The notes under the pieces: generated by a model | Seen by the model: only the letters and a program-made list of their open reading frames with translations | Told to the model about the DNA's origin: nothing | Database searches by the model: none | Part shown: positions 16,532-49,097 of the stretch, piece after piece | Layout: each line of letters opens with the position of its first letter | How positions within the stretch are numbered: the stretch's first letter is position 1 | Translations under genes and position numbers: made by a program | IMG/VR virus record: IMGVR_UViG_3300033145_001073 | Span: 1-49,097 of that record | Origin: a virus | Reading direction: 5' to 3' (one strand) | DNA length: 49,097 bases

Positions 16532-16670
16532 TGGTGGAGGTGACCGGAATCGAACCGGTGTCCAGACGTTCTTTATTATCCCCAGTACTTTGGTGGGGTC
16601 TCGCTGTACTGACGAGAGCTGCCTTTATAGCATGCCTTCAATACTTGCCTGTCGAATTCCTTTCACCCCC
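16532..16670 (-). ncRNA. Short tmRNA-like RNA (ssrA-like), 139 nt
   Basis: The 5' end GGGGGUG pairs with CACCUCC at the 3' end (7 bp) followed by discriminator A and an encoded CCA. The third pair is G-U, the alanine-charging signal. GGAAUUCGACAGG matches the tmRNA D-loop region, and CUGGAC plus an ACCGGUUCGAUUCCGGU T-arm match the 3' tRNA-like part. CAGGC/GUCUG forms the base of helix P2. UCUCG/CGAGA together with CAGUAC/GUACUG makes one H-type pseudoknot, followed by UAAUAA. Usual tmRNAs are roughly 300-400 nt with four pseudoknots and an Ala-rich tag; here no such tag is evident. It starts 1 nt after a coding gene's stop, so it must be processed from the operon transcript. Confidence 0.8.
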
Positions 16671-21534: not shown

Positions 21535-23718
21535 GTGAATACGGCCAATCCAGTTGGTGCTGAAAATAAAAACGAGATGAGAGATAAGTTCGACCGTGGA
21601 GTTGTTAAAGAAAAACTCGACAAAATTATTGAGCAAAACGCACGTATTACTCAATCCAAACCAGAATTTGTTCATCTGGCATCTTATATAGACAAATGCT
21701 GGTCTGCCGCACGGTCTGCTAAAAGCGAGATTCAGAAGGAATTATATGAAGCTAAACTTCAACGGCGTGGTGAATATAGTCCTGAAAAACTAAAAGAAAT
21801 ACAAGCATTTAGTGGTTCGGCTATTTTTATGAATCTTACGGCAGTGAAATGCAGGGCACTTGAGGCGTGGATACATGATGCGTTATCACCAGTTGGTAGT
21901 GAAATATGGGATATAGAACCAACACCAATGCCTGATTTACCTCCACATTTACAGACGTATATACAAGAATTAGTATATTCAAAAGAAGTGTCTAATTCAC
22001 TTGTAATGAATGGTATAGATGACCCGAAAGAATTATATGATTATTTAATGGAAAAAACGCAGGGTGAACTTGAAGCGCAGGCGAAATATGCTGCTGAACG
22101 TATGAAACTAAAAATAAGTGACCAGTTAGAGGAAGCGGATTGGCGCGGTACTCTTTTGGAAGTGTTATCGGATATTGCTACCTATAAAGCTGGATTTCTC
22201 AAAGGACCGATTGTTAGGCGAAAACCTGCATTATCATGGAAACAGGATGAGCAGGATGGTTCGTGGAGTGCCGTAACGGAAAATAAGATTGTTGTTGAGT
22301 ATGATAGAGTCGACCCGTTTGATATATATCCGTCACCGTCATCGACTACAATAAATGATGGTTATCTTATAGAACATCATAGAATGACCCGACAGATGCT
22401 TAATGAGCTTTTAAATGTGCCTGGATATGATGAAGAATCTATACGGCTTGTATTAAAAGAATATGGCGAGGGTGGATTACATGATTGGATTTGGACAGTC
22501 AATTTAAATGAGGAAGCGAGCGATACCGAACAATCTGATTTACAATCTTCACCCGATAATACCATAGATGCACTTGAATTTTGGGGTGATGTGCAAGGTA
22601 AAATGCTTTTAGAATGGGGTATGACAGATGATTTAATAAAAGACCCCGATAAAGAATACCATATTAATGCATGGAAAATTGGTAATTACATCATAAAAGC
22701 CGTTATAAATCAGAATCCAACTGGTAAAAAACCATATTATAAAACGTCATTTGAAAGAACGCCGGGCATGTTCTGGGGTAAAGGTGTACCAGAAGTAATG
22801 AAAGACATACAGGACATATGCAATGCAACCGCAAGAGATTTAATAAATAATGAGGCTATTTCAAGTGGCCCACAGGTGGGTATTGATATGAATCAATTAA
22901 ATATGGACCAGAATTATAAAGAGATGTATCCATGGAAACTCTGGTATTTTGATTCAGAGACTGGTCAAACAAGGAATACAAAAGCAATTGAATTTTTCCA
23001 ACCAAATTCAAATGCAGCCGAGTTATTGACAGTCTATGATTCATTCGCAAAGCGTGGGGATGAAGTTACTGGAATCCCGGCATATACATACGGTGGGGCT
23101 GATGTTGGGGGAGGAGGCAAGACTGCGACCGGGTTGAGTATGTTAATGAGTTCAGCTTATAAAAATATAAAGTTTGTGCTTTCAAATATTGATGCACAAG
23201 TTGTTAGACCATCTGTTCAGGAATTATTCAATTTCAATATGGAATATTCTACAGACGAGTCCATAAAGGGAGACCTTAGGGTTATAGCAAAAGGTGTTAT
23301 GTCTGTCGTCGCAAAAGAACAAACAGTAATTCGCCGCAATGAATTTCTATCTGCTGTTGCTGGAAATCCAGTATTATTGCAGGTTGTTGGGATGAGGGGT
23401 ATTGCGAACCTCTTGAGAGAAAGCGCTAGGTCGTTAGATATGCCTGCTGGGGATATAGTCATGTCTGAGCAAGAACTTGAGGCATTAGATACGCAAAAAC
23501 AATTAATACAACAAATCCAGCAAATGCTGATAGCTATACAAGAAGGACAGGCAAATTCAGACCAATTAGTACAAATGTTGATGCAGGTTCTTGGTTCTCA
23601 GGAGCAAGGAGGGGTTATGAACAAGGGGACTCCAGAACGCCCTAGTACATTAATGCCTGATGGTGCGAAGGCAGGTGGTGTGGAAGTAAATACTTTTTTA
23701 AATAAACCAAAGGTTTAA
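21535..23718 (+). CDS. Portal protein
   Basis: 727 aa, GTG start after AAAGGAA. Length matches P22-type portals (about 725 aa). The middle contains DPFDIYPSPSSTTINDGYLIEH and the KGVPEVMKDIQDICNATARDLINN segment found in podovirus portals, and the C-terminus is a Gln-rich helical barrel (QLIQQIQQMLIAIQEGQ). It would form the dodecameric ring for DNA entry and tail attachment. Position after TerL supports the call. Confidence 0.88.
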   Translation: MNTANPVGAENKNEMRDKFDRGVVKEKLDKIIEQNARITQSKPEFVHLASYIDKCWSAARSAKSEIQKELYEAKLQRRGEYSPEKLKEIQAFSGSAIFMNLTAVKCRALEAWIHDALSPVGSEIWDIEPTPMPDLPPHLQTYIQELVYSKEVSNSLVMNGIDDPKELYDYLMEKTQGELEAQAKYAAERMKLKISDQLEEADWRGTLLEVLSDIATYKAGFLKGPIVRRKPALSWKQDEQDGSWSAVTENKIVVEYDRVDPFDIYPSPSSTTINDGYLIEHHRMTRQMLNELLNVPGYDEESIRLVLKEYGEGGLHDWIWTVNLNEEASDTEQSDLQSSPDNTIDALEFWGDVQGKMLLEWGMTDDLIKDPDKEYHINAWKIGNYIIKAVINQNPTGKKPYYKTSFERTPGMFWGKGVPEVMKDIQDICNATARDLINNEAISSGPQVGIDMNQLNMDQNYKEMYPWKLWYFDSETGQTRNTKAIEFFQPNSNAAELLTVYDSFAKRGDEVTGIPAYTYGGADVGGGGKTATGLSMLMSSAYKNIKFVLSNIDAQVVRPSVQELFNFNMEYSTDESIKGDLRVIAKGVMSVVAKEQTVIRRNEFLSAVAGNPVLLQVVGMRGIANLLRESARSLDMPAGDIVMSEQELEALDTQKQLIQQIQQMLIAIQEGQANSDQLVQMLMQVLGSQEQGGVMNKGTPERPSTLMPDGAKAGGVEVNTFLNKPKV

Positions 23719-27771: not shown

Positions 27772-28713
27772 ATGGCTGTTTATAATCGTGCAGCTGGTAT
27801 GCCTGACTATTCATCTAGTTCAGGTGGTTATTTTATTCCCGAATTATGGTCTCCTCGTATTCAGGTAAGGTTTTATGCCAAAAGTGTATTCAGAGATATT
27901 TCAAATACGATGTATGAAGGCGAAATCAAGAAATTCGGTGATGTAGTTAATATTCGTACATATCCTGATATTACAATTGGTAATTATGTCAAAGGTCAGA
28001 CACTTGATATTCAGGTGCCTAGTTCCACACCGACTTCATTGACAATCAATAGCGGTAAATATTTCAATGTTCTTGTTGATGATGTTGATGAAGCTCAGTC
28101 AGACATAACTTTACTTGACGAGTTTTCCAAAACTGCTGGTGAGCAGATAGCAGAAGCAATTGATAAAGATGTTCTTCAGAATATCTATTCAGATGCGGAT
28201 GATAATAATGTTGGTGCATCCGCTGGTGTAGAAACCAGTGGATTTGATTTGGGTGCTGCGGATGCCCCCGAATCTCTTACAAGTGCGAATATTCTTGATT
28301 ATATCGTTGACTGTGGTACAGTTCTCGATGAACAGAATGTTCCTGAAGATGAGAGATGGATGGTAATGCCGCCCCTTTTCACCAATCTTATAAAGAAATC
28401 GGATTTGAAAGATGCTTCTCTCACTGGTGACAAGGAATCTATAATTCGGAACGGTCGTATTGGTATGATAGACAGTATGACTATTTACAAATCAAACCAT
28501 CTATATTCCGTGACAGACAGTACAACAAGTACAACTTGTTTCTATTGTTTGTTCGGACATCCGATGGGGGTTTCGTTCGCTGAACAGTTGGTTGAAACAT
28601 TTACTATCCGTGCAAATAATACATTCGGTCAGTTCGTTAGAGGGTTGCATGTATATGGATATGATGTTACAAAAGCCTCTGCTCTTGGTTACTTATATGC
28701 TGATAAAGGTTAA
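27772..28713 (+). CDS. Major capsid protein
   Basis: 313 aa. It begins with a flexible N-arm and GGYFIPELWSPRIQVRFYAKSVFRDISN, then FGDVVNIRTYPDITIGNYVKG and a long helix-rich middle (EQIAEAIDKDVLQ). The beta/alpha order and position after the scaffold fit an HK97-fold coat of the compact podovirus type; it is shorter than P22 coat (430 aa), so it probably lacks an inserted domain. GGGAG precedes the ATG. Confidence 0.85.
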   Translation: MAVYNRAAGMPDYSSSSGGYFIPELWSPRIQVRFYAKSVFRDISNTMYEGEIKKFGDVVNIRTYPDITIGNYVKGQTLDIQVPSSTPTSLTINSGKYFNVLVDDVDEAQSDITLLDEFSKTAGEQIAEAIDKDVLQNIYSDADDNNVGASAGVETSGFDLGAADAPESLTSANILDYIVDCGTVLDEQNVPEDERWMVMPPLFTNLIKKSDLKDASLTGDKESIIRNGRIGMIDSMTIYKSNHLYSVTDSTTSTTCFYCLFGHPMGVSFAEQLVETFTIRANNTFGQFVRGLHVYGYDVTKASALGYLYADKG

Positions 28714-29258: not shown

Positions 29259-30026
29259 ATGGTAATGTTTATGATAGATTTAGTTAAGAAAAAGTGTATG
29301 AAGTGTGGTATTGAAAAAAATATCAATGAATTTTATAGGAATAAATCTACGAAAGATGGATTGTGTTCATATTGTAAAAATTGTACAAAAAAACATAACA
29401 AAAAATATCATTGTGAAAATAGAGATGCATTGAATAAGCAAAAAAGAGAGCATTACCAAAGAAATAAAATTGAAGCTCTTATAAAAGCAAAAGATTATTA
29501 CCGAAAGAATAAAGAAAAAGTACGTGAAAAAAATAGAAAATATAATTTAGAAAACCGTCGTGAGTATTATTACCAAAATAAAGAAAGGATACGTGGGCGA
29601 GAAAGATTATATCGTAAGGAAAATCCTGAAAAAATACATAAGAAAGATGGTAAATATAGTAAAAAGAGAAGGCAAAATCCACAATATAGAGTTTCTATGA
29701 ATATATCGAGGGGTATATCTCGTTCGCTCATAAAAGGTAAAAATAAACAACATTGGGAAGATATTGTGGAGTATACCATTTTTGATTTAAAAGAACATTT
29801 AGAGTCTCGATTTAGTGAAGGTATGTCTTGGGACAATTATGGATTTTATGGTTGGACAATTGACCATATTATCCCTATATCGCTCTGGGAGTTTACATCT
29901 TATCAGGACCACGAATTTAAGCAATGTTGGGCTTTGGCAAATTTACAACCGATGTGGTCCAGTAAAAACTATAGCAAAGGAAATAGATTAAAACCACAAC
30001 TAAAACAACAAAGGAGAGAAGGATAA
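29259..30026 (+). CDS. Free-standing HNH homing endonuclease, second copy
   Basis: 255 aa. Zinc finger CMKCGIEKNINEFYRN...CKNCTKK, a Lys/Arg/Tyr-rich coiled region, then GWTIDHIIPISLWEFTSYQDHEF and CWALANLQPMWSSKNYSKGN. It has the same layout as the gene at 23727-24614 and is clearly related, but diverged. It sits between the coat-region terminator and the next head gene. No clear ribosome-binding site, and several ATGs are possible (29259, 29265, 29271). Confidence 0.8.
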   Translation: MVMFMIDLVKKKCMKCGIEKNINEFYRNKSTKDGLCSYCKNCTKKHNKKYHCENRDALNKQKREHYQRNKIEALIKAKDYYRKNKEKVREKNRKYNLENRREYYYQNKERIRGRERLYRKENPEKIHKKDGKYSKKRRQNPQYRVSMNISRGISRSLIKGKNKQHWEDIVEYTIFDLKEHLESRFSEGMSWDNYGFYGWTIDHIIPISLWEFTSYQDHEFKQCWALANLQPMWSSKNYSKGNRLKPQLKQQRREG

Positions 30027-32955: not shown

Positions 32956-35900
32956 ATGCCTCCCAAAAAAATAATTGTAGATACAAAAATTAATGCTGAG
33001 CTTAATTCTGAAATACCTATAGCATCGGATGAAATTACTTCTATTACGGGATTAGGTACACCAAATATCAATACTGATATACCTATTGCTGGTACTGAGG
33101 AAACGGCTCGTATTGAACAACCAATAGTAAATATCAATACTGATATACCTATTGCTGGCGATACATATGGTTCTGCGACAAAAATAAATACAAATCTTTC
33201 CACAGAATTTCCCATTGCTCCTGATACATTAGTTCAGGCTATAGAAACACGTGCCGAATTGGTAAGTGATTTTCCTGTAGCTGAATCTGTTCCATTAGAG
33301 CGGTTTGAATTATCAACTGCTAAGGGACGATGGTTGCCAAAAGGCGATGCTATTGCCATTGGTGCTGAAAATTTCAGTGAATTGGAAAATTTCAGATACA
33401 CTGATTTTGGATTGGAGGGTGTTGGTGGATTTACTGAAATAAATACTAGTGAGCATTTAGGAACAACCGATTTTACCAATGGCATACAGTTAAAAACGAA
33501 TTATGATACTAATGGTGATGGTATAAATGATAGCCATGTTTTAATGCAAGGTACTTATAGTGGTACAAGATATATTATTACACACGATGGGAATGTACCC
33601 GATGCTAGTAATTTTAATTTTTATATCACCGCTGATGTAAATGATACGTTGAATTTTACAAGTAATGAAGGCGGTCCATCAGATATAACAATTACACCTA
33701 AAGCTTATACTGGCATTACATTAGCTGCAGAAATAGAAACACGGTTAAATGATAATAATACATTAACTGGTACTGGTACAATTACATTTGAGGTTACTTT
33801 TTCTGGTGGTAGATTTACAATAGATGCTTCTGATGGTGGTACGGCGATAAAAATAAATGATTCTGAAAGTAATGCAGCAGATAGTATTGGGTTTACAGAA
33901 GACCAGGGCGGTGTTGGTATTGATAAAATATATAGTGATACGTTGGTTAGTAATATTTTATATACCGAGAATGCTTCCGCAGGTGTTGCAAGAATGTCGC
34001 AGTTGCCAAACAAGAATATTGGTATATGCGATGGTGTTGATGATTTGATATGGGCTGGCGATGAAATGCCAATTAGTGCATTTTTGGAAAGTGTGAATAA
34101 TACATATGCAAATACAGAGGATTTACCTGATTATACTAATATTGTAACTAACAACAATACCACAAGTTATGTTACGGTAAAGGCTTTGGCAGACAGTAGC
34201 TATCTTATTGGGGCAATACGACCATTATCTGGTATATATATAAATGTTGGGACAGTAAATACTGGTACTCCATCAACAATGACCGTATATTATTATACTG
34301 GTGCAGATACAATATCAACTGAATTAATGAAAGTTGACGGGACATCGGATGGTACTGTCACTCTTGCTCATGATGGATGGGTTACATGGACTCCTCCGCC
34401 TGGAGATAAACCATATTATATATCAGGATATTATCTTTATTTTTACCGAATTTTAATAAGTAAAATTGCTAATTCTCCCACAATAATTAACATAACAGCA
34501 AGGTCTGAAATGCGTAATATAGTTGATTTATGGGATGGTATATATAGAACATGCATATATGCATTAAGACATGATGATAGTCTTGAGGCGCCAGCACCTA
34601 AAAATATAGAATATACATTAGAAGTTTCAGATGTATCATATTCATATCTTGATGAAGATTTTGCTAACAGTTCCAGTGTACAGGGTATACCATTAACATC
34701 TGGTGGTGCTTCCGGCGATTTTACAACGAGTGATTATTTATATTTTATGTTTGATGAACCAATTATAGGATTAAAATTTGTTTTAAAAGGCAATAGTGGC
34801 AGTAACCAGCACGTTAAGGTTTATTATACGAGTGGAGTAACTGGAACGTGGGCGCAGGTTGATGTAAGAAGAGATTCTACAAAACAAATTGGTGGTTCAG
34901 CATCATTCAATAGGTCTGGTTTTGTTGTATGGGATGATGATATAACAGATGAAAGAAAAGTTACAATAAATAGTATTACTGGATATGCATATAAGATAAT
35001 GACATCTAATGATATTAAAAATACATATTTATATATAGATGCTGTATATGGTATTCCCAAGGGGCGTGTTGTAAACAACAATTACGTATTCCCGTTCCAG
35101 TATAAAAACCGTGCAATGTGGTGTGGTTCACAAGCCGATAAGGAATATAATCGAGTAGATTACAGTAAAGCAAACGCACCTGATGTGTATAATGGTGAAG
35201 ATGCAAGTGGATATTTTAATGAACGTTCTCTTTATTTTGGCGGTAGTGGGGCATTAACGTGTGCCGTTGAATTATTTAATCAGTATGGACAAGATGTGTT
35301 TACCGCCGCACTATTTTTTAAGAACACTGAAGCATATATGTTGACTGGCGATATGCCAGAAGATTTCAGGATATTGCCGATTTCACATAGTATCGGATGC
35401 CCAGCGCCATTAACAATAACATCTGCCGAAGTATCATATAAAGCATTGGATGCACCCGCACAAAATGTTGCAATATGGTTATCTGATAAAGGCCCAATGA
35501 TGTTTATTAGTAATACAATTCATGCAATTCCTGGTGTGGAAGACCCAACATATCAAGAATGGAATTTATTAGTACCAATAAAAGTAAATGGTGCAGCACA
35601 ATCCATAAACAATACATGGCTTGTTTATGATTTAAGGCGGTCGAAATGGTATCAAAAAACACTAGATGATAAATTCCCGCAGGGTGCATTCCCAGTTCAA
35701 GACCAATATGGTATAAACTATATATATGGATTTGATAATGGTGGGTTTTTATTAAGAATGGAAGATGGATTAGCGTGGGGAACCGGTGGTAGCACAATTC
35801 AAAATAAGGTAACAACCAGCGATTTTTTTTTCACAAACAGCACGTGGGATAGAACGCGTATAAGACGGTTAACAAGTATGTTTAAAACCGATACCGCTGG

Positions 35901-36465
35901 TGATGTTACGGTAAAATATTATAGAAATACAAAAACAGACTATGAAACCGTATCGGCGTTACCAGATACTAATGTTATGAGTTTAACGTATCACCGCGTG
36001 CGGCATTTAATATCGTACCTAAATTTAACAGCGTGGACGCACAGATTAAGTTATTTATTTAATAATTGTTCATCATTAAAACCAGTATTTCTTGGATTAT
36101 CGTTGATGTGGGAACGTGATACAGAAGAACTTACAAATATGATTGAAATAGGCGATGATAATGATGTAATGAAATTTATCAGTGACCAAGGTTCTGCCGA
36201 TATAGATGTTGGGGATGGATTATATTCGATAGATGTTGCGGTTCAAGTATTACAAGATGCTATGAATGCCGATAATACATTAACTGGTACTGGTACTATT
36301 TCTTTTGTGTGTAGTATAAATTCTGATAGAAAATTAGTAATAGATGCGGGAACTGACCATACAATTGACTATACACATACTGGCAGTACTGGTGGAACTA
36401 CTTGGGGATTTACTGGTAATGCAGATGAAGCACAAACTATAACAGCTAATAATCCAATAGCGTAG
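32956..36465 (+). CDS. Large tail-tube/stabilisation protein (gp10-like), 1169 aa
   Basis: It has an N-terminal extension of five degenerate ~23-residue repeats ending IPIAG/FPIAP/FPVAE. LPKGDAIAIGAENFSELENFRYT starts the body, as in packaged-DNA stabilisation or tail-hub proteins of P22-like phages, and the later GINYIYGFDNGGFLLRMEDGLAW with WDRTRIRRLTSMFK also fits. Two copies of a small domain with NTLTGTGTI[ST]F are inserted (about 275 and at the C-terminus). Probably the short tail stem. Stop TAG. Confidence 0.65.
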   Translation: MPPKKIIVDTKINAELNSEIPIASDEITSITGLGTPNINTDIPIAGTEETARIEQPIVNINTDIPIAGDTYGSATKINTNLSTEFPIAPDTLVQAIETRAELVSDFPVAESVPLERFELSTAKGRWLPKGDAIAIGAENFSELENFRYTDFGLEGVGGFTEINTSEHLGTTDFTNGIQLKTNYDTNGDGINDSHVLMQGTYSGTRYIITHDGNVPDASNFNFYITADVNDTLNFTSNEGGPSDITITPKAYTGITLAAEIETRLNDNNTLTGTGTITFEVTFSGGRFTIDASDGGTAIKINDSESNAADSIGFTEDQGGVGIDKIYSDTLVSNILYTENASAGVARMSQLPNKNIGICDGVDDLIWAGDEMPISAFLESVNNTYANTEDLPDYTNIVTNNNTTSYVTVKALADSSYLIGAIRPLSGIYINVGTVNTGTPSTMTVYYYTGADTISTELMKVDGTSDGTVTLAHDGWVTWTPPPGDKPYYISGYYLYFYRILISKIANSPTIINITARSEMRNIVDLWDGIYRTCIYALRHDDSLEAPAPKNIEYTLEVSDVSYSYLDEDFANSSSVQGIPLTSGGASGDFTTSDYLYFMFDEPIIGLKFVLKGNSGSNQHVKVYYTSGVTGTWAQVDVRRDSTKQIGGSASFNRSGFVVWDDDITDERKVTINSITGYAYKIMTSNDIKNTYLYIDAVYGIPKGRVVNNNYVFPFQYKNRAMWCGSQADKEYNRVDYSKANAPDVYNGEDASGYFNERSLYFGGSGALTCAVELFNQYGQDVFTAALFFKNTEAYMLTGDMPEDFRILPISHSIGCPAPLTITSAEVSYKALDAPAQNVAIWLSDKGPMMFISNTIHAIPGVEDPTYQEWNLLVPIKVNGAAQSINNTWLVYDLRRSKWYQKTLDDKFPQGAFPVQDQYGINYIYGFDNGGFLLRMEDGLAWGTGGSTIQNKVTTSDFFFTNSTWDRTRIRRLTSMFKTDTAGDVTVKYYRNTKTDYETVSALPDTNVMSLTYHRVRHLISYLNLTAWTHRLSYLFNNCSSLKPVFLGLSLMWERDTEELTNMIEIGDDNDVMKFISDQGSADIDVGDGLYSIDVAVQVLQDAMNADNTLTGTGTISFVCSINSDRKLVIDAGTDHTIDYTHTGSTGGTTWGFTGNADEAQTITANNPIA
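33066..33158 (+). repeat. Direct repeat coding IPIAG units
   Basis: ATCAATACTGATATACCTAT and flanks occur twice, near 33066 and 33132, coding INTDIPIAG. Recent duplication within a longer, degenerate repeat array. Confidence 0.6.
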
Positions 36466-39160: not shown

Positions 39161-39688
39161 ATGAACATATATGATTATCAAAGAGCGGGTGCTAATATAC
39201 CAGCCGTATCTGGTTACGCTGGTGCAAAACGTGCGGTGCCACAAACTCTTATGCGACAACCAACTGCCGAGATGGGCGAATTTAGTGCGCGTGAAGCAAT
39301 AGATGCAATGAACAGATTAAGTAATATTGAACAAGCACAACACGAACTAAATATGGAAAAACAAATGTTGGGAACAATGGGTAAGGAAAATATAAAAGGT
39401 AGTATACTCACTGCTGGTGGAATAGGATTAAAAGGATTGCAGGCATGGGAAACGGGGAAAGAGCAGGAAAAACAGGATATACGAGCTAAATTACGATTGG
39501 ATGCTCAAGATGCCATAATGAAATCAGTGCAAAAATATCCTGATTTATATGCACAAGCATATTTAGCGAATTTAAAATCTATTTATATGAAACCAATTCC
39601 AAAAACATTCAGACAAGAATTGCTTTCACCGATACCTAGTAAATATACTCAGCCACAATTAGGACAATTTGGGGGAGGGATGCAATAA
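39161..39688 (+). CDS. Hypothetical small virion/ejection protein, 175 aa
   Basis: GAGAGG precedes the ATG. Helical centre (AREAIDAMNRLSNIEQAQHELNMEKQM), then a Gly-rich patch and proline-rich C-terminus. Position just before the ejection-type proteins suggests an internal virion protein comparable to P22 gp7, but no sequence match is claimed. It abuts the next gene (TAATG). Confidence 0.5.
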   Translation: MNIYDYQRAGANIPAVSGYAGAKRAVPQTLMRQPTAEMGEFSAREAIDAMNRLSNIEQAQHELNMEKQMLGTMGKENIKGSILTAGGIGLKGLQAWETGKEQEKQDIRAKLRLDAQDAIMKSVQKYPDLYAQAYLANLKSIYMKPIPKTFRQELLSPIPSKYTQPQLGQFGGGMQ

Positions 39689-40836
39689 TGCCATATGATA
39701 ATTATTCATATATGTCACCAATACCAATAATGTATTCACCGCAGGCACAAGCGGTAACTGGACTTAGAACACCAGTACCATATGGTGAGTATATTCGGTC
39801 GCAGGCACAATATTTACCAGCTATGTATAAACAGCGTAGAATGGCTGGTATAGAGCGAGAAAGAATGGAAGAAGAAAAAAAACGTGCAAAAATAATGGAA
39901 CAGCAAGCAAGCAGAGAATTTGGTTTAGGTGTAACTAGTGTTACTGGACAAACATTACTAAGTCCAACTGTATATGAAAAATTCACAAAACCAGTTTCAT
40001 ATGAACTATATGAACGTGGTATTAAAAAACCATATAGTATGTTCATGCCAGAATCACCAGTGCCTGCTATAACTGAAAGAACGCTATCACCATTGCCTAC
40101 TATAACCGAAACGACATTATCTCCAGTGCCTACTGCAACTGAAACAACATTAACACCAGTACCTAGCGTGGGTACAACAACACCTACTACAGCAACACCG
40201 GGTATAGGTAGTAAAGCATTAAAATATACTGGTAAAGCATTTCAGCTTGCAAAACCTGTATCTGCTGGGGCAACCACTGGTTCGTTAGTAAGACAAACTA
40301 ATATTGGTGAATATATGCATAAAAGGGTTGGCGGTGGTGAACGTGAATGGGATGTTGGGTTAGGTGCGGCTACTGGTATGGCTGCTGGTGCGGCTACTGG
40401 TGCAGCGTGGGGTTCGGTTGTTCCTGGTCTTGGTAATATTGTCGGTGCTGGATTAGGTGTGGCAGCAGGTGCATTTTATGGATATAAACAACGTGGTGGC
40501 TGTATAATAGTAACTGCATGTACAAGTCCAGACTCAAAAGAAGTGGAAATTTGCCGTAAATTTAAAGATATGTTTTTGGGTAAAGATGAACTCCGTGGTT
40601 ACTATATGCTTGCCGAACAAATAGTGCCAATAATAAAACACAATGATGAATTAAAAGATGCGGTCAAGAAACATCTTGTTGATAGATTAGTTGATTATGC
40701 TGAAATAACGCTTGGGCATAAAACAGAGTTTAAATATAAAGATTCGGCTGAAATATCAACTAAGTTTATCAATATATGTAGAAACATTGGCAAAACAATA
40801 CCAAGATATGTAAGAGAAAACGGGGAGGTAATATAA
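39688..40836 (+). CDS. Ejection-type protein with glycine zipper and CFI-like box
   Basis: 382 aa. The centre has three units like SPVPTxTETTL (near 128-160), then a Gly/Ala-rich hydrophobic segment GAATGMAAGAATGAAWGSVVPGLGNIVGAG near 228-258, probably membrane-inserting. After CIIVTACTSPDSKEV (272-286) comes a helical domain (RKFKDMFLGKDELRGYYMLAEQ). CIIVTAC resembles the CFIATA box of bacterial membrane-associated domains. Likely part of the DNA ejection channel. Confidence 0.55.
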   Translation: MPYDNYSYMSPIPIMYSPQAQAVTGLRTPVPYGEYIRSQAQYLPAMYKQRRMAGIERERMEEEKKRAKIMEQQASREFGLGVTSVTGQTLLSPTVYEKFTKPVSYELYERGIKKPYSMFMPESPVPAITERTLSPLPTITETTLSPVPTATETTLTPVPSVGTTTPTTATPGIGSKALKYTGKAFQLAKPVSAGATTGSLVRQTNIGEYMHKRVGGGEREWDVGLGAATGMAAGAATGAAWGSVVPGLGNIVGAGLGVAAGAFYGYKQRGGCIIVTACTSPDSKEVEICRKFKDMFLGKDELRGYYMLAEQIVPIIKHNDELKDAVKKHLVDRLVDYAEITLGHKTEFKYKDSAEISTKFINICRNIGKTIPRYVRENGEVI

Positions 40837-42054
40837 ATGGCAACATTTCCTAATCCTTACGGCGGAACGATGCGCGGGCTTGAGAATATTCAAGCAGCAA
40901 TAAGCGGGCTTTCTGAACAGTATGCACAAAGAAAACGTGATGAACGTGCATCACAGTTGGAATTAAAGCAATTAGAGATAGATAAAGCTAGAGTAGAAGC
41001 TGAGCAGGAAATGGGATTGATTGGAGCTAAGCGGCAAAGATATATAGATGAAATGGCTGCTTATGAATCTTATGCGGATAGACTTGAGAGAGCACAGGAA
41101 GCAAGCCGAAGAGCATGGGAAACAGAGCAACAACTTGATATACAAGGGAAACAGCTTGATTTACAAGGGAAACAGCTTGATTTAGCACAAGAACGAGACC
41201 CTATATTGACTATTGAAGATTTAACTAATTTAAAAGAAGCTAAGCCTTTTGGCGGTTCATTTGGTGGTTCTATAGATATGCATATAAAAATGTTAGAAGC
41301 AGGTATACCAGTAAGGAAAAGTGATTTAATGAGTGGGTTACAATCGGCTATAAATCAAATATATCCTGCTGATGCAACTGAAGCAGAAGCAATGATATAT
41401 AATTTAAACCGAGATATAGACCTTGCTGGATTAGCTGGTGAACTCCCTAATTCAGAGAAAGTCATGGATTATTGGCAAAAAGATTATCTAAAAAAACCTG
41501 CTGCTGCAAAAGCCAGAATGGTAATTATTCCATATGATATGGTGGAAGTTGAAGATAAAATGGATAAATATAGGGAATCTATTGATTATGATGCATCCAA
41601 AGAAAAGGATATGTATAATACATATTTTGAGCAATCAAGAAAACCATCAGTTAGATTGGATGATACTGAAGAGAAAAACAAACTTATAAGTGAAATGCCA
41701 TTACATAATTACTATTTTGATTATAAAACTGAGCTTGCACCTGGTGGAAGAAGAGAAATGGTACAATCAGAGGTACTAGGCGAAGAAGCAAACAGAAAAA
41801 CTGCTTTAAATAATTTACTTAAAGCATATCCACAATTAGAAAAATTATCACCAGAAAATATGGGGAGTTTGTTTGGTAGATATATGAATGGTGAAAATAT
41901 TACTGATTTAATTAAAGAATATGGTGTGATTACAGGGGAACATATTTCTTCTATATCAAGATTGGTAGTACCAACTTTTATGCAAAAAGAATATCCTAAA
42001 ATAAAATATCCTACTATTACAAAAACAAAACCAGCAGGTTATTATTGGGAATAA
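40837..42054 (+). CDS. Hypothetical internal virion protein, coiled-coil N-terminus
   Basis: 405 aa. Residues ~25-125 form a long charged coiled coil (ASQLELKQLEIDKARVEAEQ), with a tandem repeat QLDLQGKQLDL encoded by a 21-nt duplication near 41130-41180. The rest is helical, with no enzymatic motif. Between the glycine-zipper protein and the giant protein it fits a structural ejection protein. Confidence 0.55.
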   Translation: MATFPNPYGGTMRGLENIQAAISGLSEQYAQRKRDERASQLELKQLEIDKARVEAEQEMGLIGAKRQRYIDEMAAYESYADRLERAQEASRRAWETEQQLDIQGKQLDLQGKQLDLAQERDPILTIEDLTNLKEAKPFGGSFGGSIDMHIKMLEAGIPVRKSDLMSGLQSAINQIYPADATEAEAMIYNLNRDIDLAGLAGELPNSEKVMDYWQKDYLKKPAAAKARMVIIPYDMVEVEDKMDKYRESIDYDASKEKDMYNTYFEQSRKPSVRLDDTEEKNKLISEMPLHNYYFDYKTELAPGGRREMVQSEVLGEEANRKTALNNLLKAYPQLEKLSPENMGSLFGRYMNGENITDLIKEYGVITGEHISSISRLVVPTFMQKEYPKIKYPTITKTKPAGYYWE

Positions 42055-42072: not shown

Positions 42073-45000
42073 ATGCCATATACAGATGAACAAATAAATA
42101 GAATATTATCATATTCAGAACAGCCTACTACACGGGCATATCCAACCACACGTCCGACATATGCCGAATTTATCCCTGAATCATTAAAAGAAATAGGGCG
42201 TGGTGCAGAAAAGTTTTATTTAAGTGCCACATTGCCTATGATTGACCCGGATATTGCCGAACAAAATAGACGTGAAGCTGAACTTGCACGTATTCAATCA
42301 GCATCTGAACAATACGAAAAGCGGTTTACTTCGCCAAAAGCACCAGGTACAATGCGTTTATTAGCCAAAGATGTTATACCAAATATTGGATATAGTGTTG
42401 GTATGTCTGGACCTGTTGTTGCTGCTAGTGTAGCAGGTTCACCATTACTTGGTCTTATTACTGCTGCTGGAATGTTGCATCCTGCATTACGTTCTTTAAG
42501 ACGGCAAAAAATGGATGACCTTGAAAGAACAACACGGCAACGCATAGAGCCTATTCTTGGTAGAAAAATAACAGATGATGAGTGGAACCGTGAAATAGAA
42601 CGGCACGATTACGCAACGCTTGCGAAAAAATCTGCCGCGTATGAGGTCTATCCAGAATTAATCGGTAGTGTTGCATTAGGTCTTATATTCAAAGCAGGTG
42701 GACCATTTGCCAGAAAAGCGGTAACAAAAGTTGTGGGTCGTATAGCACCAAAAGCTGGTCAAGAGGTTGGTGAAATATTAGCTAAGCCAGGCATTATTTC
42801 TGCTTTTGCTGGTGGTGTTGGTGTATTTACTGAAACACAACTTGAGGAACAAATTACAGAATTATATACAAATTACAATCAGGCAAGATTGGATTGGGAA
42901 CATGGATTAGCTGGCGAACCAGCAGACGAAAATCCATATAGTGCAGTATCATTTATTATGCCAGGTATACCAACTAGTATCCCTAAATTAGCTGAAACAT
43001 TAAAACAACAGGCAATTCCTGTTGGGCTTACAACAATTACGATGGGTGCAGTGCTTGGTGGTGGTGCAACTGCTGTCGATATACATAATGTTAATAAAAT
43101 GAGGCGTGATTTTAAGTTTGATAACGCCGATATGCGTAAATCTGTTATTAATAAAATCTGGAACGGATTAAACGAAACCAAAAATTCAGATGTGGCGATA
43201 AAATCAGCTGAAGCATTAAGGGATAAATATGGTAAGGAACAAAATCCGGAGTTATGGACTGCGTTAGATAATATTATTTCAGCGTTTAGAGATTACGATG
43301 CCACCGCAAAAACTGGCGATAGTATGATGCGTGAACGTGCGTTTAATAGATTTGAGTTGTTACGCAGTGATGAAGCGTTAAGTAAATACGGTAATCTTGG
43401 TGATACAACAGAAACTAAACATGATATATCAAGAATATTAACTAAACTTAAAGAACTTGCACAAGCCGATGGTGTAAATGTTGCTATTGAAAATGCAAAT
43501 ATATTAAGGGAAAATGCAAGCGAACTCGGATTAACAGATACGGTAAATTCTATTGATAGATTTATAAATTCATCGCGTGGGATTGAAAAACAGCGTGTGA
43601 AAGCTGTTGAAAAAGAAATAATAAAACAGCAAACATCAGAACAAAATATAGCGGCGGCTATTCAAGATGCCGCACAAAGAATTAATCAAGGTGAGGATGT
43701 ATGGGATGTTATTGCTGAAACAAATAAGAAAAAGAATATAGAGAAAGCTAGGAAAAATAAAGCCGACCGCGCAAGAATTGAAGCTGAACGTGTGCAAATT
43801 GTAGGTGCTATTCAGGATGTAGCTAATAGAATGAAAGCCGAAGAAGAAATTGGTGCTGAAATACCATTAGGTGAAGGATATGCACCACCAGTTGCCGAAG
43901 CTGTTGTACCTGCTATTCAGCCAGAGGCGGGAATTGTTGAGCCGACCGTTACTATCCCTGAAGTCGAGAAAGTTGTTCCTGAGGCACAGAAACCTACCAG
44001 AGAGGCAATTCCTGTTGAACCTACAGCAGAAAAAATCCTATCGAGAATAAAATATCGTGGTAAAATGTATAATGTTGTTAAAACACCAGAAGGTAATTTA
44101 TTCTTAAAAAGCAAAACAGCGACAATACCATATTCTTATGAGCAATATGATAAGTATATTAGTAGGGTTGAGGCTGGTAGAAAAGCTATTGGTACAAGAC
44201 TTGAGGATAAAACATTATTCCATCCTGACGAATTTGATGATAAACCAGCATTATCAGTATTATTAGGTGCGGGTTTAAACATTAAATCTGGTACAAGCGA
44301 AGGATATAAAGTTAGTGGTGAATTACGAGATTTATTTGATGGTGTTATGGTGGGTACTTCTGGGGTAAATGCAAAACTACCTTATGACCCGAAAGGTAAG
44401 TCTAATACCGATGACTTAGTTTATGCTTATAATACTGCAATAAGAGAATCTGGCGAAGCTGGTAGAGAATTTACATTATCTACATTTAATGAGTTGATAC
44501 AAGAAGCCCATAGGGAAATGGGTGAATTATATGCCCAACATAAAAGTTTTGAGAAATATGGAGCTGACCAATTAACTTACGATGAGAGTGTTGAATATGA
44601 ACAGTTGAATAAATATTTAGGGATTGATGAAGATTTTTACAGAGAAAAATTAAGAAATGCAATACCAGAAGAAGCAAATAAAATAATAGATGAAATTGTA
44701 TTGGCAAATGAGCAAGAACTTAATAATTTACATAAAGAGGTAAGGGAAAATGAACAAGCAGAAACGGAAGAAATACGGAGAAACATACAGGAAAGCGTTA
44801 AAGGCGAGGCTGATGAAAGTGGTATTACAGAAGAAGATGTTAATCAAGCAATAAGGGAACTTGATGAATATTTTACAACAGGTGTGTCTACGGAAACATT
44901 CATTGAAACAGCGGTAGAACAAATTCCCCGTGAAAAACTTAAAGAAGTAGCGTATAGAAAACCAAAAGAACTTAATGAAATTGTAAACAATAAACCACTA

Positions 45001-48000
45001 CTTTCTGACGAAGATTGGAATAGTGTTCCTGATGTAGAAAAAAAAGCTATTATGGGTAATTTACCAGATTTTATAGAAATGGCAAAAGCGTGGAATAGAA
45101 ATAGTCCTGCTATGATAAGGGATATGAATGATGGTTCTAGTTTCTCAATAAAAATTACTGGCGATACTAATCCAGTAAAATCAATAGGTGGGGAATTATA
45201 TCAACGTAGGCAGGATACACCGATTCCAGACCATACAACCGCGATGTTTAATACATTTGATTCCGTAACTGGCACACCAATAAAAGAAGGTGATTCTGTA
45301 TGGTTTTTTGAGGACGGTCGTATACTTTTAGAAGATACATTTACTTTTTTACCCGATGTTGTTAAACAAGGTACGCTGTTTGATATGCAGGTATATTTAC
45401 AAAGTAAAGGTAAAAAAGCGAACGATACGGTTAATAAAGTTACACCTGATGATACTAATTTAGTCGAACAATCTCAAAATCCTGATACACAATCTAATAT
45501 ATTTACTGATGAAGAATTGCAGGCAATGACTAAAGACCCAAATCAAACAGAATTGTTTAGTGAATATACCAAACTTTCTGGTGATTATATACCATTGCCG
45601 ATGGAAATGGTTAATGATATTGTGAATAAAGTAACTAAAGTATTTGCCAATAAGCCAAATATAAAAGTTATTGATAATATATACCAACCAACCAAAAAAG
45701 AAAATTTGGAAAAACTAAAATCAATCGGTACGCTTGGCAATCCCAATTCCACAATAGTTGGATTATTCGACCCTATTGACGATACGGTTTATTTGTCCAC
45801 CAGGGCTATGCGTAACGAAACTGATGTTGTTGAAGCTATATTGCATGAAACAATTGGACATTATGGTTTACGCAATGTTATTGGTAAACAATTAGAACCA
45901 GTGTTAAAGCAAGCATATAATTACTATAAAACGAATAATCCTGACAAATTAAATAAAATAGCCGATTTATATGGATTTGACTTAGAAAAAAATTCAAAGC
46001 ATAGAATGCAAACAGCGGAAGAACTATTAGTTGACGCTGTTATTAATCCACAAGAAGCACCTATTATTCATAACCGCGTTATAACCGTGATAAAGAATTT
46101 TATAAACCGTATACTGCGAGCTATTGGTATTTCACCGACAGAAAAAACCATTACAATAAATTCAGAAAAAGATATAATTAACCTAGCAGAACGTGCACGC
46201 GATTATGTTCTCGGGCAATCAAGACTTATTGGTGCACCAAAAAACATAACTGGTCGGAATACTGTGCTTATGCCAGAAACCATATTAAATAATTCTGATA
46301 TTTTTATAAATGAATTTAATGATATTGTTGCATCCATACGCGATAACAACGAACACCATGATATTGAAAAAATTAAAGGCGAAGTTATAGTACGTGGTAT
46401 AGAAAAACTATATCAGCAAGGAAAGAAAAAGCCGACTATCAAACAAAATAAACAAATATTTGAAGCGCGTGACCGTATTAAATGGTTTGATAAAAAGTAT
46501 GATAATGATATGTTGAACGAAATGTATAAAACGCTTAATGCTATTGCAAATCGCAAGTTTGGTGATTCACGCAAAAAAGATATACCGCTTATTCAGTGGA
46601 TTGCAGGTTCCCCAGAGTATGTTAAGAATATACCATCATTTGAAGCGTTTATAAAATTGGCTTATAATAGTTCAAATGTTAAGCGGTTATTACATAACCA
46701 AATGTTAGGCGAAGAATTAGGCGAAGGAAATGCTTTGACACGTTTGGTTAAATGGGGACATAAAAAAGGGAATGAAAAAGAATATGCCCAAATGGGCGAA
46801 GTATGGTTTGAGAATGACAGAAATAAAACCGATTATGCTAGAGAAGAAACTAAAAAAACCACACAGCTTATGTTGGACATAATAGATGAAAATCTAAAGG
46901 AAATGCCTGATTTAAATAAAATAGATAGAATGAATACTGAACGGCAATTATTGGAAAATCAGCGTAAGGATAAAACAAAAACAGAATTACAACGACAAGG
47001 ATTTTCTGAATCAGCAATACAAATATGGTTGGATATACGTGATTCGTACGATAGAGCATTGGAAACATTCATAAGATTAGGTAAAATTACAATCAAAAAT
47101 GCCAAAAAAGAAAATATGGCTATACCAACCATCTTGTTTGATGATAGCATAACAGGCACATCGTATAAAGTAAATCTTATGGATAGTGTTCGTGAAATGG
47201 CTGAAATGCGTGGATGGTATGCACCACGTTTAAGGCAACCAGGTAGATTTGGATTACGTGCAGATGCTGAGGGATTATCACCAGTACTAAAATATTTTAC
47301 TACAAAAATACAGCGTGAAAAATTCAAGTTGGATTTAATAGAACAGGGATATGATAAACAGCATAATGCTAAATTTGAATATAGGGAAAGTGAGGAATTG
47401 CCCGATACATTCAATGTATATGAAAATATATTGGGTATAGAAAAAACTATTGAAGAAGTTTTAGGACGTATGGATTTTACATTCTACGAAAGTCTTGATA
47501 AAATAAAAGGATTAGATACACGCACTGTTGATTATGTAAAAGTAGATGGTACAAAAGAACAGCATTTTATAGTTGATATGGATGGTGATAAATATTCCGA
47601 AGTGTTTAAGAATATCGGTGGTAAAAGATATGAAGAACAATCTGGTTCTGGTAATTTAGTATGGCATTTTACCGATACAAAAAATATAAAAGATAGGGTG
47701 CTTAATGGAATAAATACTGATTATAAAGCAAGACGAACAGTAAGTGATGATTTCGCGATACGGTTACTTAGCAATACCGCCAACCTTATTAAATCTGGTA
47801 GTTGGCGTGCTACAACAATAAAACGTGGAAAAGAAGTTGGTGCAGAAGTTGTACGTGGTTATGAAGAGGATTTAATTAAATCTTCTGGTACATATTTTAG
47901 TAGAACATCGGCTGGTTTAGCGAAGTCTGAGGTTGCGCAACAATTAATGGAAGCTATTTCTGGATTTTATGATAGAAGTGGCAAAAAATACGAACGTGCC

Positions 48001-49097
48001 GATTTTCACAGTGATGAAGAATTTGTTGATTTTATAAGAGAAAACCGTATTAATCCTATAATACAAAGAAGAGCATATAATCATGCACATAAAACACTTG
48101 AGTCGCTTTTATCGTCAAATACATTTGTAGAAAATGCAATGAGTTTTGCAAAATCCATGATGATTATAAAATATCTTGCTGGTACTATTGCTTCACCGTT
48201 TGTTAATGTTACTTCAATGGTTACATCGGTAGCACCGTCAATGAATCAATATGCCAAAGTTCCGTGGAAACAAATTCCTATGCAACTTATGAAAGGTGCA
48301 AAATATTATATTGAGTATCGTTTTGGCAGATTAAAAAATATTCCAGATGATGTTATTAAACTATTAAAAAAATTAGACGAAGCAAGTCTTGATAGAGCAC
48401 AATATTATAATGACCAATTGGCATGGCTTAAATCAAAAGAAGGTGCATGGGCTGCCAATATGGCAAATAAACTCATGTGGATATTTGAACAATCCGAACG
48501 GTTTAATCGTGGTGCAACCATTATTGGAACATACGATTATATTAATAAACATAATACAAAGAAATTAAGTTTTGATGAATTAGTGGAACAATCAGAAGAA
48601 ATATCAAATAAAGCACATGGTATATATGATAAAAGCACTGCACCATTTTGGGCACAGGGTAAAACCACATTACCTGTTGTATCGCGTGGTATGTATACAT
48701 TTATGAAATTTTCACATAACTATATGCAGAATATGGCAGAAATGTTTTTATCTAGTGAAACCACAAAAAAAGAAAAGATGATGAATGTAGGATGGATGAT
48801 GTTCGCACCAATGGTTCTTGGCGGAATTGGTGCTATACCACTTGCTGGCGCAGTCGATGATTTAGATGAAATGGTTGGTAATCCATTAGAAAAATCACTT
48901 AATAAAATATTCAACACTGACGATTATATGGGCGACTTTTACAGAGCGGTAGAGGAAAACTTTGGCACTACCGCTGACAGAATCGCACATGATGGTGTTA
49001 TAGGTGCGGTTACACCAGTAACTGTACGTGGTTCGCTAGCTGTTGAAGTTCCTGACCCAACCGAAACTGCACCGTGGTCGTTGGTAAAAGATATTGG
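42073..49097 (+). CDS. Giant ejection/polyvalent protein (incomplete at window end)
   Basis: Open frame of at least 2341 residues from ATG 42073, without a stop before the window ends. Early hydrophobic segments (GMSGPVVAASVAGSPLLGLITAAG; ELIGSVALGLIF; GLTTITMGAVLGGGA) may insert in membranes. A zincin site, LHETIGHYGLRNVIG near residue 1258, with TAEELLVDA further on, matches the metallopeptidase of large phage polyvalent proteins. A C-terminal LPD-type region contains AHGIYDKSTAPFWAQGK and FMKFSHNYMQNM. Such proteins travel in the virion, enter with the DNA and may cut host targets or peptidoglycan-linked proteins. Confidence 0.7.
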   Translation, partial: MPYTDEQINRILSYSEQPTTRAYPTTRPTYAEFIPESLKEIGRGAEKFYLSATLPMIDPDIAEQNRREAELARIQSASEQYEKRFTSPKAPGTMRLLAKDVIPNIGYSVGMSGPVVAASVAGSPLLGLITAAGMLHPALRSLRRQKMDDLERTTRQRIEPILGRKITDDEWNREIERHDYATLAKKSAAYEVYPELIGSVALGLIFKAGGPFARKAVTKVVGRIAPKAGQEVGEILAKPGIISAFAGGVGVFTETQLEEQITELYTNYNQARLDWEHGLAGEPADENPYSAVSFIMPGIPTSIPKLAETLKQQAIPVGLTTITMGAVLGGGATAVDIHNVNKMRRDFKFDNADMRKSVINKIWNGLNETKNSDVAIKSAEALRDKYGKEQNPELWTALDNIISAFRDYDATAKTGDSMMRERAFNRFELLRSDEALSKYGNLGDTTETKHDISRILTKLKELAQADGVNVAIENANILRENASELGLTDTVNSIDRFINSSRGIEKQRVKAVEKEIIKQQTSEQNIAAAIQDAAQRINQGEDVWDVIAETNKKKNIEKARKNKADRARIEAERVQIVGAIQDVANRMKAEEEIGAEIPLGEGYAPPVAEAVVPAIQPEAGIVEPTVTIPEVEKVVPEAQKPTREAIPVEPTAEKILSRIKYRGKMYNVVKTPEGNLFLKSKTATIPYSYEQYDKYISRVEAGRKAIGTRLEDKTLFHPDEFDDKPALSVLLGAGLNIKSGTSEGYKVSGELRDLFDGVMVGTSGVNAKLPYDPKGKSNTDDLVYAYNTAIRESGEAGREFTLSTFNELIQEAHREMGELYAQHKSFEKYGADQLTYDESVEYEQLNKYLGIDEDFYREKLRNAIPEEANKIIDEIVLANEQELNNLHKEVRENEQAETEEIRRNIQESVKGEADESGITEEDVNQAIRELDEYFTTGVSTETFIETAVEQIPREKLKEVAYRKPKELNEIVNNKPLLSDEDWNSVPDVEKKAIMGNLPDFIEMAKAWNRNSPAMIRDMNDGSSFSIKITGDTNPVKSIGGELYQRRQDTPIPDHTTAMFNTFDSVTGTPIKEGDSVWFFEDGRILLEDTFTFLPDVVKQGTLFDMQVYLQSKGKKANDTVNKVTPDDTNLVEQSQNPDTQSNIFTDEELQAMTKDPNQTELFSEYTKLSGDYIPLPMEMVNDIVNKVTKVFANKPNIKVIDNIYQPTKKENLEKLKSIGTLGNPNSTIVGLFDPIDDTVYLSTRAMRNETDVVEAILHETIGHYGLRNVIGKQLEPVLKQAYNYYKTNNPDKLNKIADLYGFDLEKNSKHRMQTAEELLVDAVINPQEAPIIHNRVITVIKNFINRILRAIGISPTEKTITINSEKDIINLAERARDYVLGQSRLIGAPKNITGRNTVLMPETILNNSDIFINEFNDIVASIRDNNEHHDIEKIKGEVIVRGIEKLYQQGKKKPTIKQNKQIFEARDRIKWFDKKYDNDMLNEMYKTLNAIANRKFGDSRKKDIPLIQWIAGSPEYVKNIPSFEAFIKLAYNSSNVKRLLHNQMLGEELGEGNALTRLVKWGHKKGNEKEYAQMGEVWFENDRNKTDYAREETKKTTQLMLDIIDENLKEMPDLNKIDRMNTERQLLENQRKDKTKTELQRQGFSESAIQIWLDIRDSYDRALETFIRLGKITIKNAKKENMAIPTILFDDSITGTSYKVNLMDSVREMAEMRGWYAPRLRQPGRFGLRADAEGLSPVLKYFTTKIQREKFKLDLIEQGYDKQHNAKFEYRESEELPDTFNVYENILGIEKTIEEVLGRMDFTFYESLDKIKGLDTRTVDYVKVDGTKEQHFIVDMDGDKYSEVFKNIGGKRYEEQSGSGNLVWHFTDTKNIKDRVLNGINTDYKARRTVSDDFAIRLLSNTANLIKSGSWRATTIKRGKEVGAEVVRGYEEDLIKSSGTYFSRTSAGLAKSEVAQQLMEAISGFYDRSGKKYERADFHSDEEFVDFIRENRINPIIQRRAYNHAHKTLESLLSSNTFVENAMSFAKSMMIIKYLAGTIASPFVNVTSMVTSVAPSMNQYAKVPWKQIPMQLMKGAKYYIEYRFGRLKNIPDDVIKLLKKLDEASLDRAQYYNDQLAWLKSKEGAWAANMANKLMWIFEQSERFNRGATIIGTYDYINKHNTKKLSFDELVEQSEEISNKAHGIYDKSTAPFWAQGKTTLPVVSRGMYTFMKFSHNYMQNMAEMFLSSETTKKEKMMNVGWMMFAPMVLGGIGAIPLAGAVDDLDEMVGNPLEKSLNKIFNTDDYMGDFYRAVEENFGTTADRIAHDGVIGAVTPVTVRGSLAVEVPDPTETAPWSLVKDI

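Follow-up and report, generated by a model that had tools for sequence, protein, structure and literature searches.

The window analysed here is the complete 49,097-base viral record IMGVR_UViG_3300033145_001073, and it ends in a giant gene. An ATG at position 42073 opens a frame of 2341 codons that runs to the very last base, confirming the coordinates of a preliminary description that had reported a protein of at least 2341 residues covering about 14% of the window. The frame is interrupted by the end of the contig, not by a stop codon. We found the missing 3' end on contig IMGVR_UViG_3300033388_004136 (locus L002), which is 99.99–100% identical to the window across the overlap, except for one 69-base insertion in an upstream gene, and which contains the stop codon. 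Since L002 extends past the end of the window, the giant proved to be 181 residues longer than the window alone shows. The complete protein has 2522 aa (about 286 kDa), and smaller genes come after it on L002. In the window itself, the gene order is SU10-type portal, major head protein, structural genes, three genes for proteins of 175, 382 and 405 aa, and the giant (Table 1).

Table 1. Features of the giant gene and of the genes upstream of it (residue numbers refer to the giant)
Feature	Position	Strand	Basis and remarks
SU10-type portal protein	21535..23718	+	PF23899, 62.2 bits
Major head protein	27772..28713	+	phrog_267, E 4.9e-58
175-aa gene, possible small ejection protein	39161..39688	+	position only; no family match
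382-aa gene, possible ejection/channel protein	39688..40836	+	weak glycine-zipper match, 18.4 bits (cut-off 25)
405-aa gene, possible ejection protein, directly upstream of the giant	40837..42054	+	position
Giant ORF	42073..49097	+	2341 aa in the window; 2522 aa at L002:10001-17569
Hydrophobic segment, residues 115-133	42415..42471	+	hydropathy only; weaker ones at 235-253 and 314-332
Probable cargo region, residues 341-1136	43093..45480	+	no recognised domain or relative
Zincin-like domain, residues 1177-1379	45601..46209	+	profile match, alignments, structure model, structural neighbours
HETIGH (HExxxH), residues 1258-1263	45844..45861	+	presumed metal ligands H1258 and H1263, presumed general base E1259; conservation
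E1317, presumed third metal ligand	46021..46023	+	invariant in 100 of 100 domains; on a later helix in the model
PRLRQPGRFG, degenerate PLxRFG-like motif, residues 1718-1727	47224..47253	+	aligned region of relatives, consensus YxPLxRFG
Tail-700/PLxRFG-related region, residues 1910-2341 (to 2477 in L002)	47800..49095	+	NCBIfam, relatives
Hydrophobic segment in the C-terminal region, residues 2237-2257	48781..48843	+	hydropathy only

Hydropathy exceeds 1.6 in two 19-residue spans of the giant (residues 115–133 and 2239–2257) and 1.3 in two further ones (235–253 and 314–332). The support that hydropathy gives to the membrane segments claimed in the preliminary description is weak. When the whole window protein was compared with Pfam, PHROGs and PDB sequences, nothing useful was found; the entire giant gave three weak matches among plasmids, all to the zincin-like domain and two of them annotated as LPD38. 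The domain search along the full length that had been proposed as a check recognised two parts, the zincin-like domain and a tail-700-related C-terminus, and left the presumed cargo between them and the N-terminus without a domain.

Some other features of the window may be mentioned here. The 69 extra bases of L002 are located at window position 35541 within a gene for 1169 aa (32956–36465) that has no family match and that also harbors a 30-base exact direct repeat (33063–33158). An endonuclease VII-like gene (29259–30026; phrog_1035, E 2.8e-19) is situated between the head and the structural genes. On the minus strand, a 139-nt RNA (16532–16670) matches the Rfam tmRNA family with 59.3 bits (gathering threshold 47). 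The match reaches both ends of the model but lacks most of its central part, and ARAGORN did not call a tmRNA for this RNA. By eye, we could recognise a G3:U70-like acceptor-stem pair and an internal frame ending in TAATAA, and the RNA folds more strongly than shuffled sequences (z -3.0). It appears to be a reduced phage tmRNA. A pattern scan of viral contigs found it only in IMGVR_UViG_3300033388_004813, whose portal gene is identical to that of the window.

The HExxxH site and the zincin-like domain

A zincin site, HETIGH, had been placed near residue 1258. The position is correct and the site is real, but its designation as HExxH is not correct: the motif is HExxxH, which has one residue more than the HExxH site that had been proposed for mutation. 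HETIGH is the sole HE...H in the giant, and a motif scan of the complete protein sequence revealed no HExxH. Taken alone, the motif is only suggestive, since 2.7% of 5000 sequences shuffled at constant composition contain an HE...H (and 0.2% an HE...H.G); it is the conservation that establishes the site. In 100 non-redundant domains, including that of the window (below 60% identity, drawn from 163 aligned domains), H1258, E1259, H1263, G1265 and E1317 are all invariant. The search patterns favour the first four of these residues. A fairer test of conservation is E1317, which comes 59 residues after the first histidine, because the query, residues 1214–1310, ended before it. At position 1316, 86 domains have E and 12 have D, and position 1320 is A in 91 and V in the window protein. 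The general-base glutamate of zincins is not a metal ligand; E1317 is the likely third ligand.

Relatives that were reached without the motif, by protein similarity or family search, gave the same picture. In all 12 places, from 11 records (L015; the phage loci L018, L019, L021, L022 and L023; the unannotated L020; and the phage loci L181–L185, which were read by eye), the primary copy keeps all five of these residues; these places are the records that were opened from among those listed by the searches. Loss of the zinc site in relatives had been named in advance as an observation that would refute the preliminary description. Such losses were seen in two second copies of the domain, in L076 (residues 1535–1724) and L099 (residues 1815–1989), and both giants keep an intact copy as well. 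The domain can thus also persist as a non-catalytic fold, and we abandoned the statement that the site is never lost. How often losses occur cannot be read from the loci of the broad searches, because the patterns that selected them contained the motif or sequence close to it.

The spacing of the motif was examined in the 176 profile matches that cover at least 100 model positions. HExxxHxG was found in 169 of them and HExxxH without that glycine in one, while four have HExxH and two have lost the site. The four HExxH domains have weak scores (13–27 bits). They and both dead domains are extra copies beside an intact HExxxH copy in the same protein, as is to be expected from the way the loci were chosen. 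On these weak scores, HExxH and HExxxH may be one-residue variants of a single family.

The HExxxH domain is common. One search each yielded 197 relatives on viral contigs (80 kept) and 77 loci in bacterial genomes, and the family is found in phages of Bacteroides, Vibrio and cyanobacteria. The stop-to-stop frames that contain it are mostly very long (at least 1500 aa in 139 of 157, many being cut by the ends of the loci). Even at E 0.1, each of the 25 Pfam families listed (out of 71) matches 5 of 95 members at most, the best being DUF6782 (5 of 95, best E 0.0043). The family phrog_14770, of unknown function, matches 88 of the 95 members and the domain of the window with 21.6 bits.

A structure model of residues 1138–1389, based on an alignment of 95 sequences, reached a pLDDT of 78 and a pTM of 0.72. 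The order of its elements is helix (40–51 in model numbering), strand (59–63), helix (72–80), two strands (91–96 and 101–105), the long helix with HETIGH (112–151), a short helix (153–163) and the helix with E1317 (171–187). Foldseek alone found no match to this model in the PDB at E 0.001; lethal factor was at the top of the list and MATCAP present, with globins and other unrelated chains filling much of it. When the Foldseek-preselected chains were aligned with VIA-align, 53 of 994 reached a Z of at least 2. Metallopeptidases and lethal factor make up 39 of the 42 entries listed. Lethal factor accounts for 22 of these 39, and in 5 of its 22 rows the aligned part is not the catalytic one but the N-terminal one (residues of about 50–260 of the chain). 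The matches include lethal factor (Z 6.2, rmsd 5.3, 170 aligned), MATCAP (Z 5.2, rmsd 5.0, 145 aligned), IrrE (Z 4.9, rmsd 3.3, 91 aligned), lugdulysin (Z 4.2, rmsd 4.2, 108 aligned), TTHA0227 (Z 4.1, rmsd 2.5, 78 aligned), jannalysin (Z 3.7, rmsd 3.9, 81 aligned) and Wss1 (Z 3.4, rmsd 4.0, 86 aligned). Several of these neighbours are zincins, and MATCAP and TMCP1 are two names of the same protein. The individual Z values are middling, and it is the consistency of the list that carries the argument for the modelled fold. Among predicted viral structures, several Foldseek matches bear the annotation of a large polyvalent protein associated domain. A search of PDB sequences with the zincin profile gave nothing credible.

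Zincin-like peptidases have been described as the commonest domain of the so-called polyvalent proteins, one set of them having HEXXXH, and the zincin region of the N4 type has been tied to the lethal-factor superfamily (Iyer et al. 2017, PMC5512222). The HEXXXH set, which occurs in giant phage proteins, resembles our model in having an N-terminal helix and a three-stranded sheet, to which the giant adds a helix (72–80), followed by the motif on the active-site helix and a glutamate on a second C-terminal helix, the place of E1317, with an extra short helix in between here (153–163). This likeness is drawn from the published description. The cargo of the giant, in contrast, is of no recognised kind. 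As to the other criterion of polyvalent proteins, several unrelated domains in one polypeptide, the giant displays the zincin and the C-terminus only, while its relatives carry more enzymatic domains. We regard the giant as a further member of this described class of phage delivery proteins, not as a new system.

An HExxxH site is compatible with peptidase activity, as is known from TMCP1 and DPP III (PMC10499314), and the literature at hand on this topic gave no assay of an HExxxH phage domain. Like the giant, MATCAP/TMCP1 and DPP III (M49) combine HExxxH with a later glutamate, and MATCAP is also a structural neighbour, but they are cellular exopeptidases of a different build that have no sequence match to the zincin. 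DPP III is not among the 42 entries listed from the Foldseek-preselected chains, a preselection that could miss its fold. The motifs HExxGH and EExx[A/V]D, the latter being the second motif of MEROPS family M49, led us to consider membership in that family, but the giant was not filed there. From sequence and model, the middle of the giant is predicted to be a gluzincin-like metallopeptidase with an HExxxH...E site, which would bind metal and be catalytic.

The C-terminal region and the changing cargo

NCBIfam NF032893 (tail-700/PLxRFG) matches residues 1910–2477 with 91.2 bits (E 5.7e-26), which is below its curated cut-off of 100 bits even with the full giant. Judged by sequence, the C-terminus is thus related to the PLxRFG/tail-700 region but divergent from it. 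The PLxRFG giants of this family (F116, Lastavirus and others) have the homologous region at their C-terminal end as well; in contrast to the cut-off that defines them, the giant stays at its lower score, and its motif is degenerate (PRLRQPGRFG). Among eight aligned relatives, PLxRFG is present in L057, L036, L045, L064 and L098 and absent in L061, L065 and L081. A model of the C-terminal region is mostly helical and of low confidence (pLDDT 54). We judged it too poor to interpret: the 50 PDB neighbours listed are short helical pieces, and the N4 structure 9PNR is not among them. Compared with predicted viral structures by Foldseek, this low-confidence model matches several proteins annotated as large polyvalent protein associated domain. 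Together with the match below the cut-off, these annotations support the LPD-like C-terminal region that had been claimed before. A search of PDB sequences with the C-terminal profile gave nothing credible.

This profile was built from the giant and nine relatives and finds two proteins outside its build set. One, from Vibrio phage douglas 12A4, has the HExxxH zincin and the C-terminal region together. The other, F116 gp60, differs from the giant in that it contains HExxH motifs and has no match to the HExxxH domain. Both the zincin and the C-terminal region of the giant are matched by L061, L065, L081 and L057. The curated tail-700 family is above its cut-off in 8 of 47 viral records that hold the zincin, a count in which regions as divergent as that of the giant could be missed; the pairing thus recurs but is not the rule. 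We did not use the count of 12 of 173 proteins with both parts, because ten of them had built the profile and the eleventh is the same protein on L024, leaving douglas as the only independent case. In 28 complete viral frames, the length of the C-terminal part has a coefficient of variation of 0.32 and that of the N-terminal part one of 0.39; the values for 23 complete bacterial frames are 0.53 and 0.63. This trend is weak, and a strong claim of a constant C-terminus and a variable N-terminus was dropped. Single-linkage clusters of the C-terminal regions (72 in one) were also left unused, since shared extra domains can chain clusters.

The probable cargo region of the giant resembles nothing that we could recognise. 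Residues 341–1136 have no match in phages at E up to 1 and contain no credible domain by Pfam, PHROGs or NCBIfam, and a search of viral contigs with residues 530–976 returned the near-identical contig only. The relatives with both parts carry a variety of domains. In the L061 giant (L061:6607-12687), residues 493–599 form a 2H domain with HVT and HIT motifs that is over the cut-off for both the 2'-5' RNA ligase (39.3 bits) and the Acb1 (31.9 bits) family; from its sequence, it is a possible virion-delivered anti-CBASS enzyme. A phosphoribosyltransferase is found in the L065 giant, GGDEF, PBECR1 and ADP-ribosyltransferase domains in that of L081, and an ADP-ribosyltransferase together with LPD39 in that of L036. 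By kind, the cargo of these four relatives comprises 2H/Acb1-like, phosphoribosyltransferase, GGDEF, ADP-ribosyltransferase and RNase domains. As far as sequence comparison can tell, zincin and C-terminus are a common chassis that is reused with changing cargo in the relatives.

Probable ejection and possible role of the peptidase

The gene order upstream of the giant is reminiscent of N4, where portal and head protein are followed by gp53, gp52, gp51 and the giant gp50, with other genes interspersed. In the published description of N4 gp50, the virion RNA polymerase, membrane helices are predicted at the N-terminus, and the polymerase, a zincin called C1 and a helical C2 make up the remainder (PMC12633501, preprint). 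It shares with the giant the gene order, putative N-terminal membrane segments, the cargo, the zincin and an end of about 1,100 residues (1272 residues from the motif to the C-terminus in gp50, 1264 in the giant). Unlike the giant, gp50 has HExxH and an RNA polymerase. Pfam, PHROGs and NCBIfam detect no polymerase family in the giant, and a very divergent polymerase could be missed in this way. The alignment of N4 C1 with the zincin profile is limited to 38 columns (probability 71), and C2 has no detectable sequence relation to the C-terminal profile (probability 0.2).

A second point of comparison is gp69 of the Burkholderia phage JC1, a DarB-like giant of the Bcep22/JC1 type. Its zincin aligns to the HExxxH family with an hhalign probability of 95.8. 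The default search missed it, and it emerged only when two sequences were searched with the filters off (31.5 bits), which makes it a distant relative. Unlike the giant, gp69 carries the shorter HExxH, so that the alignment has a gap of one residue within the motif, and its C-terminal region is unmatched. It is the last gene of the morphogenesis module, and 51 unique peptides of it were found in CsCl-purified virions (PMC9144972, Table 6). Given the gene order, the N4-like layout and the presence of gp69 in virions, the giant is likely located in the virion, too. The earlier claim that it is ejected with the DNA gains support from the same three lines, which make it a reading by analogy.

We favour, with a probability of roughly 0.5, the interpretation that the giant is a phage-type large polyvalent protein that is packaged in the head, ejected with the DNA and processed by its own peptidase, which would free the cargo. 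Among the ejection proteins that are pushed into the host, it would be the largest and the last in order. Its N-terminal part would comprise the weak hydrophobic segments and a cargo of no recognised kind, and the last 1,100 or so residues, which form a mostly helical, PLxRFG-related region, would probably serve packaging and ejection. The peptidase would most likely cut its own polypeptide or sister copies, either at head maturation or after entry, and so release the cargo parts. Self-processing has been proposed for the peptidases of polyvalent proteins, and processing of P1 DdrB has been reported (Iyer et al. 2017, PMC5512222). This report and the spread of the zincin across hosts and cargo favour a general processing role. 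In the giant, we identified no cleavage site. Furthermore, the N4 polymerase is packaged unprocessed although it has a zincin in the same place (PMC5512222), so that the same position need not mean self-cleavage.

The N4 case also brings up a structural role, in which the zincin would be a metal-stabilised C-terminal module that helps in packaging or holds the cargo inactive, without cleaving peptides. N4 C1 may be such a module, as it is part of a C-terminal domain with an inhibitory effect on the polymerase (PMC12633501, preprint), and the two second copies in L076 and L099 that lost the metal site would suit it. However, a purely structural metal site leaves unexplained why E1259, the presumed general base, is invariant, both in 100 of 100 domains, where the search pattern favoured it, and in all 12 places that were found independently of the pattern. 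We regard this explanation as unlikely, and about as unlikely as that of an injected effector which cuts a host protein, for example part of a defence system, ahead of all phage gene expression. The retained catalytic residues would be needed for the latter as well, related giants carry other effector domains, including the 2H domain over the Acb1 cut-off, and proteolysis of host proteins is listed as a possibility by Iyer et al. (PMC5512222). On the other hand, no host target is indicated, and an anti-defence domain is possible in one relative (the 2H/Acb1-like one) while none is recognised in the giant. One and the same family occurs in phages of very different hosts and in bacterial genomes while the cargo around it changes, a pattern more in keeping with a general role than with a single, specific target in the host. 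Catalytic residues that are kept beside changing effector cargo seem to fit self-processing better than an anti-defence protease, and a host-directed anti-defence protease is less likely than a processing module.

It seems more improbable still that the giant opens the cell envelope at DNA entry, as T7 gp16 does, with the metallopeptidase acting on envelope peptides or proteins. Its place as the last gene of a likely ejection-protein set and its weak hydrophobic segments would agree with such a function, but Pfam, PHROGs and NCBIfam reveal no transglycosylase or other wall-lytic domain in it, and L002 has a separate M15-like gene downstream (18.0 bits, below the cut-off of 25).

The giant makes a useful test case, because it has a single intact site and relatives with the same chassis and changing cargo. 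The possible variation between HExxH and HExxxH within one family would also be useful for understanding how zincin sites tolerate insertions. A bolder, tentative extension of the self-processing interpretation, to which we give less credence than to the interpretation itself, is that zincin and PLxRFG-type C-terminus constitute a self-processing delivery chassis for injected anti-host cargo with exchangeable effectors. Here, this chassis would carry an orphan cargo of a new kind (residues of about 341–1136), which the HExxxH peptidase would free after entry. If this is true, 2H/Acb1-like cargo as in L061 could pre-empt CBASS before any phage gene is expressed.
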